Of a stretch of 38,248 bases of DNA, positions 23,609-31,086 are shown in pieces. The DNA is from Fidelibacterota bacterium. GTDB taxonomy: Bacteria; Fidelibacterota; UBA8477. The stretch covers positions 1 to 38,248 of the forward strand of contig JAIPJR010000016.1 in NCBI GenBank assembly GCA_021734045.1. Direction: 5' to 3'. Below the pieces are notes generated by a model that was given only the letters and a program-made list of their open reading frames with translations, searched no databases and was not told the DNA's origin. Made by a program: the position numbers and the translations under genes. Each line of letters opens with the position of its first letter. Position 1 is the first letter of the stretch.

Positions 23609-24010
23609 TCATTGCCAGATCGCCAGAATAATGCCGGCCATCGTTAGTCCCAAAAAATGATAACTGATGTTGATGAAATAGAGACGGATGCCCTTGTTGG
23701 CGAAAAATATCTCGTCGGCGCATGTGACCACCACAAATCCCAGCCAAATCCAGAATGCGGTTTCCAAACCACCCAGCCAGGTGTCAGCCTGAGTGTAATG
23801 AATAAAATGTGCCAGGATGTACACGCTCAATACCCTGGCCAGGAATGTGAATATCATCGCCTGGGTGGGATTTTTTTGATCCCGCGGTGATGAAGTCACC
23901 AATTGCTGCCAGATTTTTCCAAACAGGAGCAAATACCAGATGGCTCCCAGCAGAAAAGACCCTGCAGCAGCCACCAGTACGGCCCATAAGTGAATAGAAA
24001 TCACTTCCAT
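23609..24010 (-). CDS. DUF1761 family small membrane protein
   Basis: A 133-residue protein with about four membrane helices (e.g. LWAVLVAAAGSFLLGAIWYL, FTFLARVLSVYILAHFI, AFWIWLGFVVVTCADEIFF). The pattern of a short tryptophan/tyrosine-rich first helix followed by the LFGKIWQQL loop fits the DUF1761 family. Function is unknown in the family as far as I know. A strong Shine-Dalgarno (GGAGGT) lies directly upstream of the ATG at 24010. It is separated from the flavoprotein gene by 115 bases on the same strand. Confidence 0.75.
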   Translation of the reverse strand: MEVISIHLWAVLVAAAGSFLLGAIWYLLLFGKIWQQLVTSSPRDQKNPTQAMIFTFLARVLSVYILAHFIHYTQADTWLGGLETAFWIWLGFVVVTCADEIFFANKGIRLYFINISYHFLGLTMAGIILAIWQ

Positions 24011-24326: not shown

Positions 24327-24881
24327 TCATGATTTCAAATCCTCTGCCAGGGCGGTTTGAACATCGCCGGATAATTCACTTTCCAATGTCAAATCCGGGT
24401 GATCCGACCCTAAAGCTACCGGGACCTTACCCTGCGTGTCGAATTTTAGGTATTGCACCGAAGAGAGACGGTCCTGACCTAACTGGCGCGGATCGAATTT
24501 AGCATAAGCTTTGGAGCCATCCTTCAATTTGGCATATAAATGCTCAGGGAGTTTTACCCACTGCCGTAATTTCACATCACGCTCCCCTTTGTCATCAATC
24601 TCAATGAGCAGCGTACATCCCAATTCGCCGTCACCACCCAAAATCTCATTGTAGGTATCAATCTCGTGCTGGATATCCTCTTCCCGTACCAACTTCTCAA
24701 TCCGCATCATTTCTTGAATTTGATAGCACATGGTGTCGCGATTTTCAAACAGGAAGGTGAGGTCATCTCCCAGATGAACCCGGCGACGGTCTTTAGCCGC
24801 GAGAACGTCCGGACGAATCTCCTCCCGTTTTTCGGTGTAGGTCATATAATCCAGAATTTCACTTCGTTCGATGGGTTTCAT
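24327..24881 (-). CDS. DUF3501 family protein
   Basis: A 184-residue soluble protein I recognise as DUF3501 from its N-terminal MKPIERSEILDYMTYTEKRE, the RRRVHLGDDLTFLFENRDTM block and the MMRIEKLVREEDIQHEIDTYN segment. The function is not known. Family members typically sit beside rubrerythrin and a two-CCG-domain Fe-S protein, exactly as here, so a part in peroxide or redox defence is likely. It has a single Cys (GELGC) plus the Cys of TMCYQ and no evident metal motif. Its ATG follows the TAA of the DUF1801 gene without a gap (TAAATG), with GAGAGGG as ribosome site, so the two are coupled. It is the last gene of the cluster. Confidence 0.85.
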   Translation of the reverse strand: MKPIERSEILDYMTYTEKREEIRPDVLAAKDRRRVHLGDDLTFLFENRDTMCYQIQEMMRIEKLVREEDIQHEIDTYNEILGGDGELGCTLLIEIDDKGERDVKLRQWVKLPEHLYAKLKDGSKAYAKFDPRQLGQDRLSSVQYLKFDTQGKVPVALGSDHPDLTLESELSGDVQTALAEDLKS

Positions 24882-25265
24882 TTATTTCCCTCTCTTTAAT
24901 TTTACTTTTTCTCTGTTTTCCGCCGCTCTAAACAACACCATTTGCTGGATTACATCGTAAGGAATTGGTTGATCCAGCGGAAATTGCACGGCTCCTTTTG
25001 AGCTTTTGTAAGCTGACAATTCTTTTTGAAACTGCTGGATGCCACTGGGGGCAGGATAAAAACCAATGTGCCTTTTGCATACCGCAAAATGAACCAAATT
25101 ACCATTCAGAAAGAAGGTGGGCATTTGATAACTCATCTTCTCTTCACCGTCAGGAGCGGCTTCCCGAATCGTTAACCGGATTTTTTCCAGAATTTCCTGA
25201 AGCTGAGACGGAAAAGCTGCGATATATCTATCAATGCTATCGGGTATTTGCGCATCAGGTTTCAA
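24882..25265 (-). CDS. DUF1801 domain protein (YdhG-like, frataxin-like fold)
   Basis: A 127-residue protein from the chosen start. The body reads IDRYIAAFPSQLQEILEKIR, then EAAPDGEEKMSYQMPTF and HIGFYPAPSG, the standard DUF1801 pattern. Some members (B. subtilis YdhG) have been described as frataxin-like iron chaperones, which would suit a cluster with rubrerythrin and an Fe-S protein; I infer this only by family and position. The track start at 25310 is a TTG without ribosome site. I prefer the TTG at 25265, preceded by GGAG at 8 bases and giving the usual family N-terminus length. It begins 54 bases after the Fe-S gene and abuts the DUF3501 gene. Confidence 0.82.
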   Translation of the reverse strand: MKPDAQIPDSIDRYIAAFPSQLQEILEKIRLTIREAAPDGEEKMSYQMPTFFLNGNLVHFAVCKRHIGFYPAPSGIQQFQKELSAYKSSKGAVQFPLDQPIPYDVIQQMVLFRAAENREKVKLKRGK

Positions 25266-25319
25266 AGTGAACGCTCCGGTAATTTGAATCCACTTTGAAT
25301 AATTGAGCAAATTGATGTG

Positions 25320-26681
25320 TTATGAGGATGGCTTCTCCTCCGGATCAATCATGGTTTCAAACCCATCCGCCCGATAGGCCCTGGCCAGAACGGACATGGG
25401 ATGCAGTGGTTTCTGACCAGCATGCTGCTCAAACTGAATGGCTGCCAGCGGGCAGTCGGTGGACCAGAGTTCAGCATCGGCGCCTTGAACCCCATCGAAG
25501 GCCTTTTTCCCCAGCCGTTTCGCCGGATCAAAGCCCTCTACTTTCATGGCATAAGTACCATTGTGACCACAGCATTCCATGGTGGTACTGATTTTTACAT
25601 GGGGAATTTTACGCATGAGATCCCGGCCTTTAAAACCCACGGCCTGGGCACGCAAATGACAGGGCACGTGATAGGCGATTTTTTCGCCCGGGGTACTCTT
25701 GAAATCAGTTTTGAAGCGCTCCTGATCACGAATCGACCAGAGGAATTCAGATGGATCATTGATAGCTGCGGCCAGCTTTTCGGCACGCAGTTTGTCCTCT
25801 CCGGTTAGAAGTTCAGGATATTCGCGTCGCATCATCATTGCGCAGGTGGGATTAATGGCCAGGACTTTGGCACCTTTCTCCACATAGGGCAGCAAAATAT
25901 CGATATTTTTCAGAGCATTCTTCTTTAGCTGCTTGTAATCACCCTGCTCCCAGGCTGGCATACCACAGCACACCAGACCATTCACGCACGCTGTATTTAC
26001 GCCATTATGCTCTAATACTTCCAGGGTATCCACACCGATATCCGGCTCGTTGTTTTGAACGAAACAGGTTTGGAACAGGACTGCTTCCGCGCCGGGGTCG
26101 GGTTGAATTTTGCCGCTCTTTTCCGCCCATTTCTCAAATGTGGTCTGGGCAAAATTGGGCAGGAGTTTGTCCCGGTGAATGCCCACGGTTTTTTCCATAA
26201 AGAAACGGGAAATACTTACTTTGTTGGCGAGATTGGCTATGCCGAATGACATCCGTGCCAATTTGGCGGCTCCATCCGGATTTCCCAGCATACGGTCGCG
26301 CAGGGTTTTGCGTTTTTTGGTTGCTCGAACCGCGGTATAACGGTGAACCAGTTTGGGGAAATCGAGCTGGAATTCATGACCATCCCGTGGCGTGTAGGGA
26401 CATTGGACCTCGCATAATTTGCACTGAAAGCAGGCTTCCATGATGTGGTCGGTTTCGTCACTGGTAACCTGCCGGACATCGCCGTCATATTTTTTATCCA
26501 GCAGGTCAAAAAGGGAGGGGAATGCATCGCAGTATTTGAAACACATACGACAGCTGTGACAGATTTCGAATGCGCGCTCGACCTCTTGGCTCAGCAGGGC
26601 CGGATCCCAGTATTTTGCTTCCGTGGGATCGTAGCTTAAACCCTCGCTGGGCAAAAATGAGATGTTCTTCTTTTCATTCAT
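25320..26681 (-). CDS. (Fe-S)-binding CCG-domain oxidoreductase, GlpC/HdrD-like
   Basis: A 453-residue cytoplasmic protein. Two 4Fe-4S motifs occur near the N-terminus (CHSCRMCFKYC and CFQCKLCEVQCPY, ~40-100). Two CCG (cysteine-rich) domains follow: TCFVQNN...VNGLVCCGMPAWEQGD and PCHLRAQ...MECCGHNGTYA. This is the architecture of GlpC and the heterodisulfide reductase HdrD/HdrB family, which pass electrons between Fe-S clusters and a partner. In the rubrerythrin/DUF3501 neighbourhood it may supply electrons to rubrerythrin, which here lacks its own rubredoxin domain; that is an inference. The start at 26681 has AGGGG upstream and is better than the ATG at 26696, which overlaps that site. A terminator between rubrerythrin and this gene implies lower expression or a separate promoter. 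Confidence 0.92.
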   Translation of the reverse strand: MNEKKNISFLPSEGLSYDPTEAKYWDPALLSQEVERAFEICHSCRMCFKYCDAFPSLFDLLDKKYDGDVRQVTSDETDHIMEACFQCKLCEVQCPYTPRDGHEFQLDFPKLVHRYTAVRATKKRKTLRDRMLGNPDGAAKLARMSFGIANLANKVSISRFFMEKTVGIHRDKLLPNFAQTTFEKWAEKSGKIQPDPGAEAVLFQTCFVQNNEPDIGVDTLEVLEHNGVNTACVNGLVCCGMPAWEQGDYKQLKKNALKNIDILLPYVEKGAKVLAINPTCAMMMRREYPELLTGEDKLRAEKLAAAINDPSEFLWSIRDQERFKTDFKSTPGEKIAYHVPCHLRAQAVGFKGRDLMRKIPHVKISTTMECCGHNGTYAMKVEGFDPAKRLGKKAFDGVQGADAELWSTDCPLAAIQFEQHAGQKPLHPMSVLARAYRADGFETMIDPEEKPSS

Positions 26682-26764
26682 GTCGTTTCCCCTCATACGA
26701 ATGTGATTTAATCAGCTGCCGTCACCCTGGTTGCACTGCATGCAATTTGGATTAGGATGGAAAA

Positions 26765-26818
26765 ATCAAAAAAACCGCCAGCTTGTGATGGTGTATCTGT
26801 ACCACAAACTGGCGGTTT
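26765..26818 (-). terminator. rho-independent terminator after rubrerythrin gene
   Basis: On the minus strand AAACCGCCAG and CTGGCGGTTT form a 10-base stem that extends inward through a second imperfect stem (TTTGTGGT/ACCATCACAAG), followed by TTTTGATTTTT. It starts 19 bases after the rubrerythrin stop and separates it from the Fe-S gene. Confidence 0.9.
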
Positions 26819-26836
26819 AAGTATTCATGATCAGAG

Positions 26837-27256
26837 TTAGCTGATCGTGTCTAACAGGCTCTGAAAACGGCCGGCATGGGATTTCTCAGCCTTAGCCAGT
26901 GTTTCAAACCAATCGGCAATTTCATTGAAACCTTCTTCGCGGGCAGTCTTGGCCATGCCCGGGTACATGTCGGTGTACTCGTGGGTTTCGCCAGCCACTG
27001 CGGATTTCAGATTGTCAATCGTATCACCAATGGGTAGATCGGTGGCCGGATCGCCGACGGCTTTCAGGTAATCCAGATGGCCGTGGGCGTGGCCGGTTTC
27101 ACCTTCAGCGGTCTCACGGAAATTGGATGCAATTTCCGAGTAACCTTCTACATCAGCGACTTTACCGAAGTATAGGTAGCGACGATTGGCCTGGCTCTCA
27201 CCTGCAAATGCTTCTTTCAGATTATCGTGGGTTTTGCTTCCTTTCAGGTCAGCCAT
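26837..27256 (-). CDS. rubrerythrin, diiron domain only
   Basis: A 139-residue four-helix ferritin-like protein that reduces peroxide with a diiron site. Ligand-bearing blocks are [50 protein letters not shown] and [13 protein letters not shown]. The usual C-terminal rubredoxin domain (two CxxC) is missing: the protein contains no cysteine at all, so electrons must come from another protein. The neighbouring Fe-S protein is a candidate. An AAGGAGG ribosome site precedes the ATG, suggesting high expression. A 17-base palindrome lies ~93 bases upstream and a strong terminator follows, so it is likely an abundant monocistronic message with read-through to the downstream genes. Confidence 0.93.
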
Positions 27257-27348
27257 TTTTTCCTCCTTGAGTTGTTTTTTACTCGTTTCAGCATACCCGC
27301 TTGCTACCGGGATGCCGTTTTTACTTATAAATTGTCAAGCGCGCGTAT

Positions 27349-27378
27349 TTTAGAATGATTCTAAATAGAATGCAATGA
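27349..27378. promoter_or_regulatory. Fur/PerR-type operator upstream of rubrerythrin
   Basis: TTAGAATGATTCTAA (27350-27364) is a perfect 7-1-7 inverted repeat, the architecture of PerR and Fur boxes, extended by one further T/A pair. It continues into ATTCTAAATAGAAT, a second partial palindrome sharing the middle half-site. A minus-strand TTGACA starts about 10 bases further towards rubrerythrin. The Fur-family gene ends 25 bases away, so its product is the obvious ligand. Confidence 0.78.
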
Positions 27379-27389
27379 CAAATAACTGC

Positions 27390-27830
27390 CTACTGTCGTT
27401 TCCCGCGTATCAGAATAGAAATATCATTCACTCGAATATCCTCTGGCAAATTCAGATTGATCTGTACCTGGTCCGACTGGATGTCGTGTAGTGTTCCCGA
27501 ATCCTCATCTAAAAAATGAAAATGAGGTTCGGTATTGCGGTCATAAATGACTTTATCGGAATGGTCAAATCGAATCGCTTGCACCAATCCGGCGGTTTCC
27601 AGCGCGTGAACCGTGTTGTAAACAGTAGCCAGACTAATACCGGGAAATTTAGCATCCACCCAGGCTTTAATATCTTCCACGGACGGATGGTTGGCCTGAT
27701 TCAGGATGTATTGACAAATGGTAAGGCGCTGCGCAGTAGGGCGCATACCCGCCTGTTTCAATTCGCCACGGATTTCTTCCGGGGTCAGCGTGGGATGCGG
27801 GGATTGTTGCGTCATTGGTGATGTTTTCAT
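27390..27830 (-). CDS. Fur-family transcriptional regulator (PerR/Irr-like)
   Basis: A 146-residue DNA-binding regulator. The winged helix covers ~20-90, with GMRPTAQRLTICQYIL, HPSVEDIKAWVDAKFPG and the recognition helix ISLATVYNTVHALETAGLVQ. The metal-sensing part keeps IYDRNTEPHFHF but reads DEDSG where PerR and Fur have CxxC, and the second CxxC near the C-terminus is also absent. Structural zinc is therefore not expected. In this it resembles Irr-type members. It probably controls the rubrerythrin gene through the palindrome just downstream of its own stop. A perfect TATCTTAAGATA palindrome lies immediately upstream of its ATG and might serve autoregulation. It is divergent from the SGNH hydrolase gene. 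Confidence 0.9.
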   Translation of the reverse strand: MKTSPMTQQSPHPTLTPEEIRGELKQAGMRPTAQRLTICQYILNQANHPSVEDIKAWVDAKFPGISLATVYNTVHALETAGLVQAIRFDHSDKVIYDRNTEPHFHFLDEDSGTLHDIQSDQVQINLNLPEDIRVNDISILIRGKRQ

Positions 27831-28644: not shown

Positions 28645-31086
28645 ATGACCGAGCCCGTTTATCCGCCCTACGCTGACCTGGTATTCCCGCTCAATGTGCG
28701 GCAGGCGTTCTCTTTCCAGATTCCGACGGACATCCAACCGGTCATCCAGATCGGCCAGCGCGTCATTGCTCCTCTGGGACACCGGAAACAACAGGGCATG
28801 GTGATTGGATTTCGACATGAGGTTGCGCCTGAGATGGTGGATAAAATGCGGCCGCTGGAACGCATCGTGGACCCAGTTCCCATTTTCAACCAGCCGCTTT
28901 TGGATCTGCTGAAATGGATGTCCACCTATTATCTCACGCCCTTAGGGAAAGTGATTCAGACGGCAATTCCATCGGATGCCCGATTAAAGAAAGAGACACT
29001 CATCACCTGGCAGGAGTCTGCCGCCAGGAATGATGACGATGCAGACTCTGTAACGGCATATCTTCGTGAGAAATCACCGGTAAAACTGTCAGCGCTGAAA
29101 ACAAAATTTGGTGCGGCTGAGGCGATCCAGGTGGTTACCAGGTTGCAGCGAACCGGACAGATTGATCTGGAAAATGTATTTGCCATGCGCCAGCAGCGCC
29201 CGGCTGATTTTCTCCTGATTCCGGAAATCGCCACGGCACAGGAGCAGTTGCCTCGTAAGGGCAGCAAACAATTGGCGGTTTATGAAGCATTACTGCCTTA
29301 TCCGGGAGGAAAACAGCAGTCGGCTGTGCAGGCTGAGCTGGGTGCCACTGGTGCGGTTTTGCAGGGGTTGGTTGACAAGGGGCTTCTGATAAAACGACCG
29401 GTGCGCCCAGACCTGGATCCGTTGAAAGACTACCATCGGCCACCGGATAAAACCATTGTTCTGAATCCGGAACAGGCGCGTGCTACCGAGGAAATTCAGC
29501 GGGCCATGGGGCGACATGAATTTACCCCCTTTTTTCTGTTTGGTGTGGCGGGCAGTGGAAAAACGGAGGTTTATCTGGAATCTGCCGGCCTGGCACTGGA
29601 AAAGGGCCAGAGTGTCATTGTGCTGGTGCCTGAGATCGCCCTGGCGCCCCAACTGGCGCAGCGTTTTCAGCAGCGGTTTGGTGATGTGGTGGCGTTGTGG
29701 CATTCTAATCTGCGGGGTGCAGAAAGACTCCAAACCTGGCAAGCCATTCAGCGGGGCGAATTCAAAATCGTGGTGGGTGCTCGGAGTGCGGTATTGACGC
29801 CGGTGAAGGATTTGGGGCTGATCGTGGTGGATGAAGAGCAGGAAAATGCCTATAAGCAGGAGGACACGGATCCAAAATACCACGCCCGGGATGTTGCGCT
29901 CATGCGGGGGCGATTTGAAAAGGCGGTGGTGATATTGGGCAGCGCTACGCCCTCCCTGGAGACCTATTACAACCAGATTCAGTCGCGCTTCAAATCGCTC
30001 CACCTCTCCAAGCGTTGGGAAAAAGCCGTCCCACCAGTGGTGGATGTGGTGGATATGGCAACGGAATATGAGGAAACCGAAGATTGGTCTTCGCCCTTTT
30101 CTCGCAAACTGCGTGCGGGTATTGAGGAAACCCTCGCCAGTGGAAAACAGGTAATATTGCTGCAAAACCGGCGTGGGTACGCACCAATTGTGAAATGCCG
30201 AAGTTGTGGGTACGCATTAGCCTGCCCAGATGATGAAATTACACTCACGTATCATAAAGTGGGTCACCGGATGCGCTGCCATTTCTGCGGTTATGAATCG
30301 GCGCCACCCACCGCGTGTCCCGCCTGCGGTGCGGTGGACTTACACATGGGTGGATTGGGAACACAAAAGGTGGAAGAAGCTTTGCTGGCACTGTTTCCGG
30401 ATGTGTCCGTTTGCCGGATGGATTTGGATACCACCCGACTCAAGGGAGCGCACCAGAAAATACTGGGGGATTTCGCCCGGCAGAAGTACAGTATTTTGCT
30501 GGGAACGCAGATGATTGCCAAGGGACTGGATTTTGAAAATGTGACACTGGTGGGTGTCATGAATGCCGATTCCGGCTTGCATTATCCCGACTTCCGCGCC
30601 CGGGAAAAGACCTTTCAACTGGTATATCAGGTGGCGGGGCGCTCTGGGCGTGGTGAATTTCCCGGAAGGGTTGTCATCCAGACCTGGCAGCCTGATAATT
30701 TTGCTATTCAATGCGCTACCCGGCAGGATGTGAAGCTGTTTTATAACAAGGAACTGGAGGATCGGAATCAGCTTGATTATCCACCTTTTTCCCGTCTGGT
30801 CACATTTGATTTTACCGGCCCCCGCCGTAGTGATGTTGAGCGGGTTGCCGGGCGTGTAGCAGAGATTTTAGACGATTTTGACGGGTTGACCATTTTAGGG
30901 CCGGCACCGGCATTGGTGGAGCGGAGTCGGGACGGTTTTCGCTGGAAATTGATTGTGAAATCACCCAAAGCCAAAGATCCGTCCGGGAAGCAATTACACA
31001 CCGCCACCCGTTATGTTCAGCAGCGATATACCCATAAATCCATCCGTATGAGTATTGATGTGGACCCGGTCCGGACCATGGGATGA
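28645..31086 (+). CDS. priA: primosomal replication restart helicase PriA (N')
   Basis: An 813-residue superfamily 2 helicase that reloads the replisome at stalled forks. An N-terminal DNA-binding domain (PLNVRQAFSFQIP; GQRVIAPLG) is followed by Walker A LFGVAGSGKTEVYLE, motif II VVDEEQENAYKQ, GSATPSLET, the zinc insert and helicase motifs YQVAGRSGRGEFPGRV near the C-terminus. Two departures from the norm are visible. Motif II reads DEEQ instead of DEEH. The zinc insert has only seven of eight cysteines, because the second pair CPxCD is CPDDE here. No frameshift is apparent. The start has no Shine-Dalgarno and probably relies on coupling with the SGNH gene. The stop overlaps the next gene as ATGA. 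Confidence 0.95.
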   Translation: MTEPVYPPYADLVFPLNVRQAFSFQIPTDIQPVIQIGQRVIAPLGHRKQQGMVIGFRHEVAPEMVDKMRPLERIVDPVPIFNQPLLDLLKWMSTYYLTPLGKVIQTAIPSDARLKKETLITWQESAARNDDDADSVTAYLREKSPVKLSALKTKFGAAEAIQVVTRLQRTGQIDLENVFAMRQQRPADFLLIPEIATAQEQLPRKGSKQLAVYEALLPYPGGKQQSAVQAELGATGAVLQGLVDKGLLIKRPVRPDLDPLKDYHRPPDKTIVLNPEQARATEEIQRAMGRHEFTPFFLFGVAGSGKTEVYLESAGLALEKGQSVIVLVPEIALAPQLAQRFQQRFGDVVALWHSNLRGAERLQTWQAIQRGEFKIVVGARSAVLTPVKDLGLIVVDEEQENAYKQEDTDPKYHARDVALMRGRFEKAVVILGSATPSLETYYNQIQSRFKSLHLSKRWEKAVPPVVDVVDMATEYEETEDWSSPFSRKLRAGIEETLASGKQVILLQNRRGYAPIVKCRSCGYALACPDDEITLTYHKVGHRMRCHFCGYESAPPTACPACGAVDLHMGGLGTQKVEEALLALFPDVSVCRMDLDTTRLKGAHQKILGDFARQKYSILLGTQMIAKGLDFENVTLVGVMNADSGLHYPDFRAREKTFQLVYQVAGRSGRGEFPGRVVIQTWQPDNFAIQCATRQDVKLFYNKELEDRNQLDYPPFSRLVTFDFTGPRRSDVERVAGRVAEILDDFDGLTILGPAPALVERSRDGFRWKLIVKSPKAKDPSGKQLHTATRYVQQRYTHKSIRMSIDVDPVRTMG

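Follow-up and report, generated by a model that had tools for sequence, protein, structure and literature searches.

The locus studied here raises two questions: which of its five neighbouring genes work together, and what reduces a rubrerythrin that carries no rubredoxin domain. The window, i.e. the whole stretch of 38,248 nucleotides that was analysed, belongs to a marine Neomarinimicrobiota (Ca. Marinimicrobia) bacterium with a 92% complete genome and a haem-copper terminal oxidase (COX1 match in genome G000 at 1e-124). An earlier note on this DNA had described five same-strand genes, and all five open reading frames were found in place on the minus strand: a Fur-family regulator (27390..27830; Pfam FUR, 84 bits), a 139-aa aerobic-type rubrerythrin, RBR (26837..27256; Rubrerythrin, 102.5), a CCG-domain Fe-S protein, RFO (25320..26696; CCG 44 and Fer4_17 27), a DUF1801 (YdhG-like) gene (24882..25310; DUF1801, 62) and a DUF3501 protein (24327..24881; PF12007, 180). 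A DUF1761 membrane protein gene (23609-24010) and a PriA-like helicase gene (28645-31086, judged from the translation) lie near the cluster, and no further stress genes were seen adjoining it in the window.

The locus belongs to the known RBR-RFO-DUF3501 module, which is real and well conserved. The same note had taken the system to be a candidate uncharacterised one, but its core trio is the aerobic-type rubrerythrin module that Cardenas, Quatrini and Holmes published (2016, PMC5114695). The proposal that RFO compensates for the lost rubredoxin is not new either, as it is made in that paper. The module was taken up in later papers (PMC7050145, PMC7852563), one of which traces the trio as far as mitochondria-targeted proteins of protists (PMC7050145).

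Linkage was determined for 91 DUF3501 loci from several phyla (the window, 80 named contigs and 10 other loci, with a few genomes present twice across the sets), of which 82 were uncut on the upstream side. Both RBR and RFO were found at 78 of these 82 loci, RBR only at 2 and neither at 2; the recurrence stated in the note thus stood, and the clustering of three of the five genes is far beyond chance. RBR-DUF3501 pairs with RFO not alongside were seen at L061 and L085, one a SAR324 and the other an Acidimicrobiaceae genome, and provide natural cases in which to examine what the donor is. Among 244 Neomarinimicrobiota genomes, module RBR, counted from 68% identity upwards, was present in 28, exactly those that had RFO; all 28 also had DUF3501 (Fisher p 9e-35, kinship ignored). 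Outside this set DUF3501 was found only in genomes G022 and G023. COX1 was detected in 26 of the 28 module genomes and in 22 of the 51 genomes with a classical two-domain RBR. One genome contains an aerobic-type rubrerythrin gene broken by several stops (G068:C99:6974-7380) and gave no match to DUF3501 or RFO, so that the whole module has apparently been lost there.

The window RBR contains no cysteine, as had been noticed from the sequence, and its diiron ligand positions (E20, E53, H56, E90, E93, E124, H127) are invariant among the sampled relatives. Of 102 linked RBR open reading frames, 101 stop 8-18 residues past the last ligand motif and one is masked. Such a tail is too short for a rubredoxin domain, which is therefore absent from the window RBR and from every readable linked RBR (0/101). 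With the linkage counts above, neither of the two outcomes that the note had named as fatal to its electron-donor idea occurred. The rubredoxin family gave no match in the window genome (92% complete) or in five other genomes, and free rubredoxin was dropped as an electron donor. As no rubredoxin was detected in RBR or elsewhere in the genome, a carrier other than rubredoxin must reduce RBR. The window RBR matched sulerythrin at E 2e-54, and the closest solved relatives were PDB 4di0, 8fuh and 9onm (E about 5e-67), which we take to be Burkholderia structures; a literature search for the recent Burkholderia-type rubrerythrin structures brought up no paper. By analogy with the published activity of its homologue ferriperoxin (Hydrogenobacter thermophilus, PMC3317640), the window RBR is probably a peroxidase.

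In RFO, a COG0247-like protein, the two 4Fe-4S and two CCG motifs of the original description were located at C46/49/52/56 and C89/92/95/99 (each CX2CX2CX3C) and at residues 243-245 and 375-377. The eight [4Fe-4S] cysteines are kept almost without exception among 100 RFO relatives, and the first CCG domain has its four cysteines. The second CCG domain is degenerate: its motif reads CSG in 64 of the 100 relatives (Ser for Cys376), and Ala418 replaces its last cysteine (E. coli GlpC Cys372) in the window and in at least 96 of the 100 RFOs. We infer from these two losses that the domain speaks against an HdrB-type cluster and for plain electron transfer. The predicted structure of RFO (pLDDT 91.6) matched LutA as the top hit, mycobacterial EtfD and HdrB, and sequence search found no solved relative. 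An assignment of RFO to GlpC itself was rejected, as the protein scored below the NCBIfam GlpC equivalog cut-offs (259.8 vs 278 and 192.9 vs 279.9) and has Ala418 in place of Cys372.

The closest named relatives of the window DUF3501 are in JAIPJQ010000088 (89%) and MNWS01000271 (71%). Its predicted structure (confidence 95.6) matched only the solved homologue 3fjv from B. pseudomallei, which is described as a protein of unknown function and nothing further, so the fold gave no functional hint. No DUF3501 relative was found in viral contigs, and viral carriage was rejected. The DUF3501 proteins of G022 and G023 (97-108 bits) are encoded beside a Fur protein and opposite Ni-SOD; in G022 an S26 peptidase is also opposite and a peroxiredoxin sits between Fur and DUF3501. 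Rubrerythrin gave no match in either genome. At L058:1429-3814 and L059:5600-7463 a divergent DUF3501 lies next to Fur and Ni-SOD, at L058 also with a peroxiredoxin and an S26 peptidase, and the genomes of these two loci gave no rubrerythrin or RFO match. The accessible text of the papers that mention DUF3501 describes no RBR-free DUF3501 beside Ni-SOD.

The cassette of the window genus groups with Myxococcota/SAR324/Actinomycetota cassettes and not with those of its own phylum (AU p about 1e-57), which suggests that it was acquired by horizontal transfer. In the RFO tree the window genus stands apart from all other Neomarinimicrobiota (AU p 5e-58), indicating at least two origins of the cassette in the phylum.

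The window Fur protein has one Cys only and no structural Zn site (CxxC pairs). Its regulatory metal ligands H48, D97, H103, H105 and D116 are present, the presumed counterparts of B. subtilis PerR H37, D85, H91, H93 and D104. The structural Zn site is also missing in Leptospira PerRA/PerRB and in Irrs. The best NCBIfam match was PerRB, under its cut-off. In the tree of this short protein, the window Fur formed a group (96% support) with its paralogues in G000, G244 and G238, and this group was joined next by IrrA (89% SH-aLRT), apart from the CxxC-bearing Fur proteins tied to the cassette elsewhere in the phylum. Its earlier description as a peroxide-type Fur was thus borne out for the family and the PerR-type metal site, but the protein groups with the zinc-site-free Irr/PerRB type. 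In G000 and G238 the paralogue is the first gene of a dps-ZIP or dps-ZIP-catalase operon. Such operons headed by an Irr/PerR-like Fur were seen at L178:1472-4756 and L176:2729-4505, and their operator is of the type found in the window's rbr promoter. The window Fur may sense peroxide, by guilt by association with dps-ZIP-catalase only.

A perfect 7-1-7 palindrome, the predicted operator TTAGAATGATTCTAA (27350..27364, strand not assigned), lies between fur and rbr. The palindrome TTAGAATNATTCTAA occurs at this place in each of the three genus members; none of their genomes has a second exact copy, and base composition alone would predict 0.0075 such sites. The operator sits in the 17-bp spacer of the predicted rbr promoter TTGCAT/TAAAAT (27347..27375, minus strand), and the predicted promoters of the genus-mates, read by eye, have spacers of 17 and 16. 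It presumably resembles the PerR box of B. subtilis as well as the Irr box of rhizobia. Copies with one or two mismatches precede the regulator paralogues. Loose (two-mismatch) matches showed no excess over a reversed-pattern control, so a regulon based on them was rejected and only exact and regulator-adjacent sites were used. In other families of the phylum a CxxC-bearing Fur with a PerR-type site stands in front of the same cassette, in many loci with an TAGGAATNATTACTA-like box ahead of it. As boxes and linked Fur types differ between families, it appears that two distinct Fur-family regulators came to stand at the cassette independently of each other within one phylum. An intrinsic terminator hairpin follows rbr (26766..26818, minus strand; z -5.5), and the two genus-mates have one there too (z -6.1 and -4.9). 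This strong, conserved terminator separates rbr from the Fe-S gene, which makes a five-gene operon too simple a description.

Taken as a whole, the locus is probably best explained as a peroxide-removal RBR-RFO-DUF3501 module that was transferred, is switched by an Irr/PerR-like regulator and has RFO as the candidate donor. The gene content, linkage, co-occurrence, phylogeny and operator conservation behind this explanation were computed; we infer the donor, the role of DUF3501, the repression with its signal and the expression levels as follows. The RBR diiron site would reduce H2O2 or organic peroxides. RFO, with at least two [4Fe-4S] clusters and a GlpC/LutA/HdrB-like fold, would be the best candidate to supply the electrons, and DUF3501 would act as a conserved partner. 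The adjacent Fur would bind the operator in the rbr promoter and release it under peroxide or a changed iron or haem state. With the terminator after rbr, RBR would be the most abundant product, and RFO-DUF3501 would be expressed from read-through or from a promoter of their own. The putative source of the cassette would be of the Myxococcota/SAR324/Actinomycetota type, and its regulator is related to that of the genus' dps-ZIP operon.

RFO is the leading, although unproven, electron donor of RBR. Another reading, less probable but still of considerable weight, is that RBR receives its electrons directly from a flavoprotein, for example NADPH-FNR, and that RFO and DUF3501 take part in assembly, in repair or in some other redox reaction within the same stress response. 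For the turnover of ferriperoxin, NADPH and FNR were sufficient (PMC3317640), so RFO is not strictly required, and two uncut loci at which RBR and DUF3501 stand without a neighbouring RFO argue in the same direction, as do the RBR-DUF3501 pairs without RFO that PMC5114695 reports for 25 organisms. The replacement by Ala of the final cysteine that GlpC has in its second CCG domain would also fit. However, FNR was an added in vitro partner and need not be the only one in vivo; the sharing of the same genomes by RFO and module RBR in the phylum and the nearly complete retention of the eight cluster cysteines likewise speak for RFO as the donor. We consider it unlikely that RFO ties RBR to the pool of quinols or to some other central source of electrons, as in a respiratory-type cytoplasmic peroxidase, with DUF3501 a general peroxide-response protein that also works without rubrerythrin; the last part is suggested by DUF3501 beside Ni-SOD (in one case with a peroxiredoxin) in two rubrerythrin-free genomes.

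It is similarly improbable that the locus mainly serves iron or haem homeostasis, with RBR handling iron as a ferritin-like protein controlled by Irr and peroxide removal not its main role. The grouping of the regulator with IrrA, the haem sensing of Irr-type proteins and the argument of the Leptospira authors that PerRA/PerRB may act as Irrs would agree with such a role, but the operons that begin with the nearest related regulators are of the dps-ZIP(-catalase) kind, other families use a CxxC-bearing PerR-type Fur at the same cassette, and disruption of the homologue ferriperoxin, a peroxidase, abolished aerobic growth (PMC3317640). Hardly credible is a five-gene iron/peroxide system with DUF1801 as an iron-chaperone component, as the earlier note had proposed. 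The coupling on which it drew is there, the DUF1801 stop codon abutting the DUF3501 ATG. However, DUF1801 was present at the module locus in only 1 of 110 stretches, in both genus-mates RFO is followed directly by DUF3501, and all three genus genomes have DUF1801 genes elsewhere. DUF1801 is a bystander insertion seen in this species only; its likely start is TTG 25265, which is preceded by GGAG and better than 25310.

The trio is widespread, and the questions that it poses are its electron path and the role of DUF3501. What the locus contributes is a clean test of co-occurrence, a signature in the cysteines by which RFO can be told from GlpC, a regulator and operator predicted to serve the cassette, and DUF3501 loci without RBR, which are informative about the role of DUF3501. 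New here are the suggested gain of the cassette from distant bacteria and what seems to be its control by a local stress switch that is related to the one governing another stress operon.

In comparison with known systems, the only solved DUF3501 is 3fjv. GlpC, LutA and HdrB have the superfamily and the CCG domains in common with RFO, and GlpC also its eight [4Fe-4S] cysteines; GlpC differs in Cys372, which is Ala418 in RFO, and glpA/glpB do not adjoin RFO. The zinc-free Irr/PerRB regulators share with the window Fur the HxH motif (H103-F-H105), the PerR-type Asp and the lack of CxxC. The window Fur differs from Irr in having no Cys-Pro haem motif, in a host phylum far from the alphaproteobacteria and in its peroxide and iron defence neighbours. 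The Cys-Pro haem regulatory motif is not universal among Irrs. Ferriperoxin, a peroxidase with NADPH-FNR in vitro (PMC3317640), and sulerythrin are single-domain proteins without rubredoxin, like the window RBR; in H. thermophilus, however, the RFO gene is apart from the other two module genes (PMC5114695), whereas in the window it lies in the cluster. The module of Cardenas et al. has the same three families, the clustering and the missing rubredoxin in common with the window, to which the window adds a local Irr/PerR-like regulator with its predicted operator, the DUF1801 insertion and a terminator between rbr and RFO.
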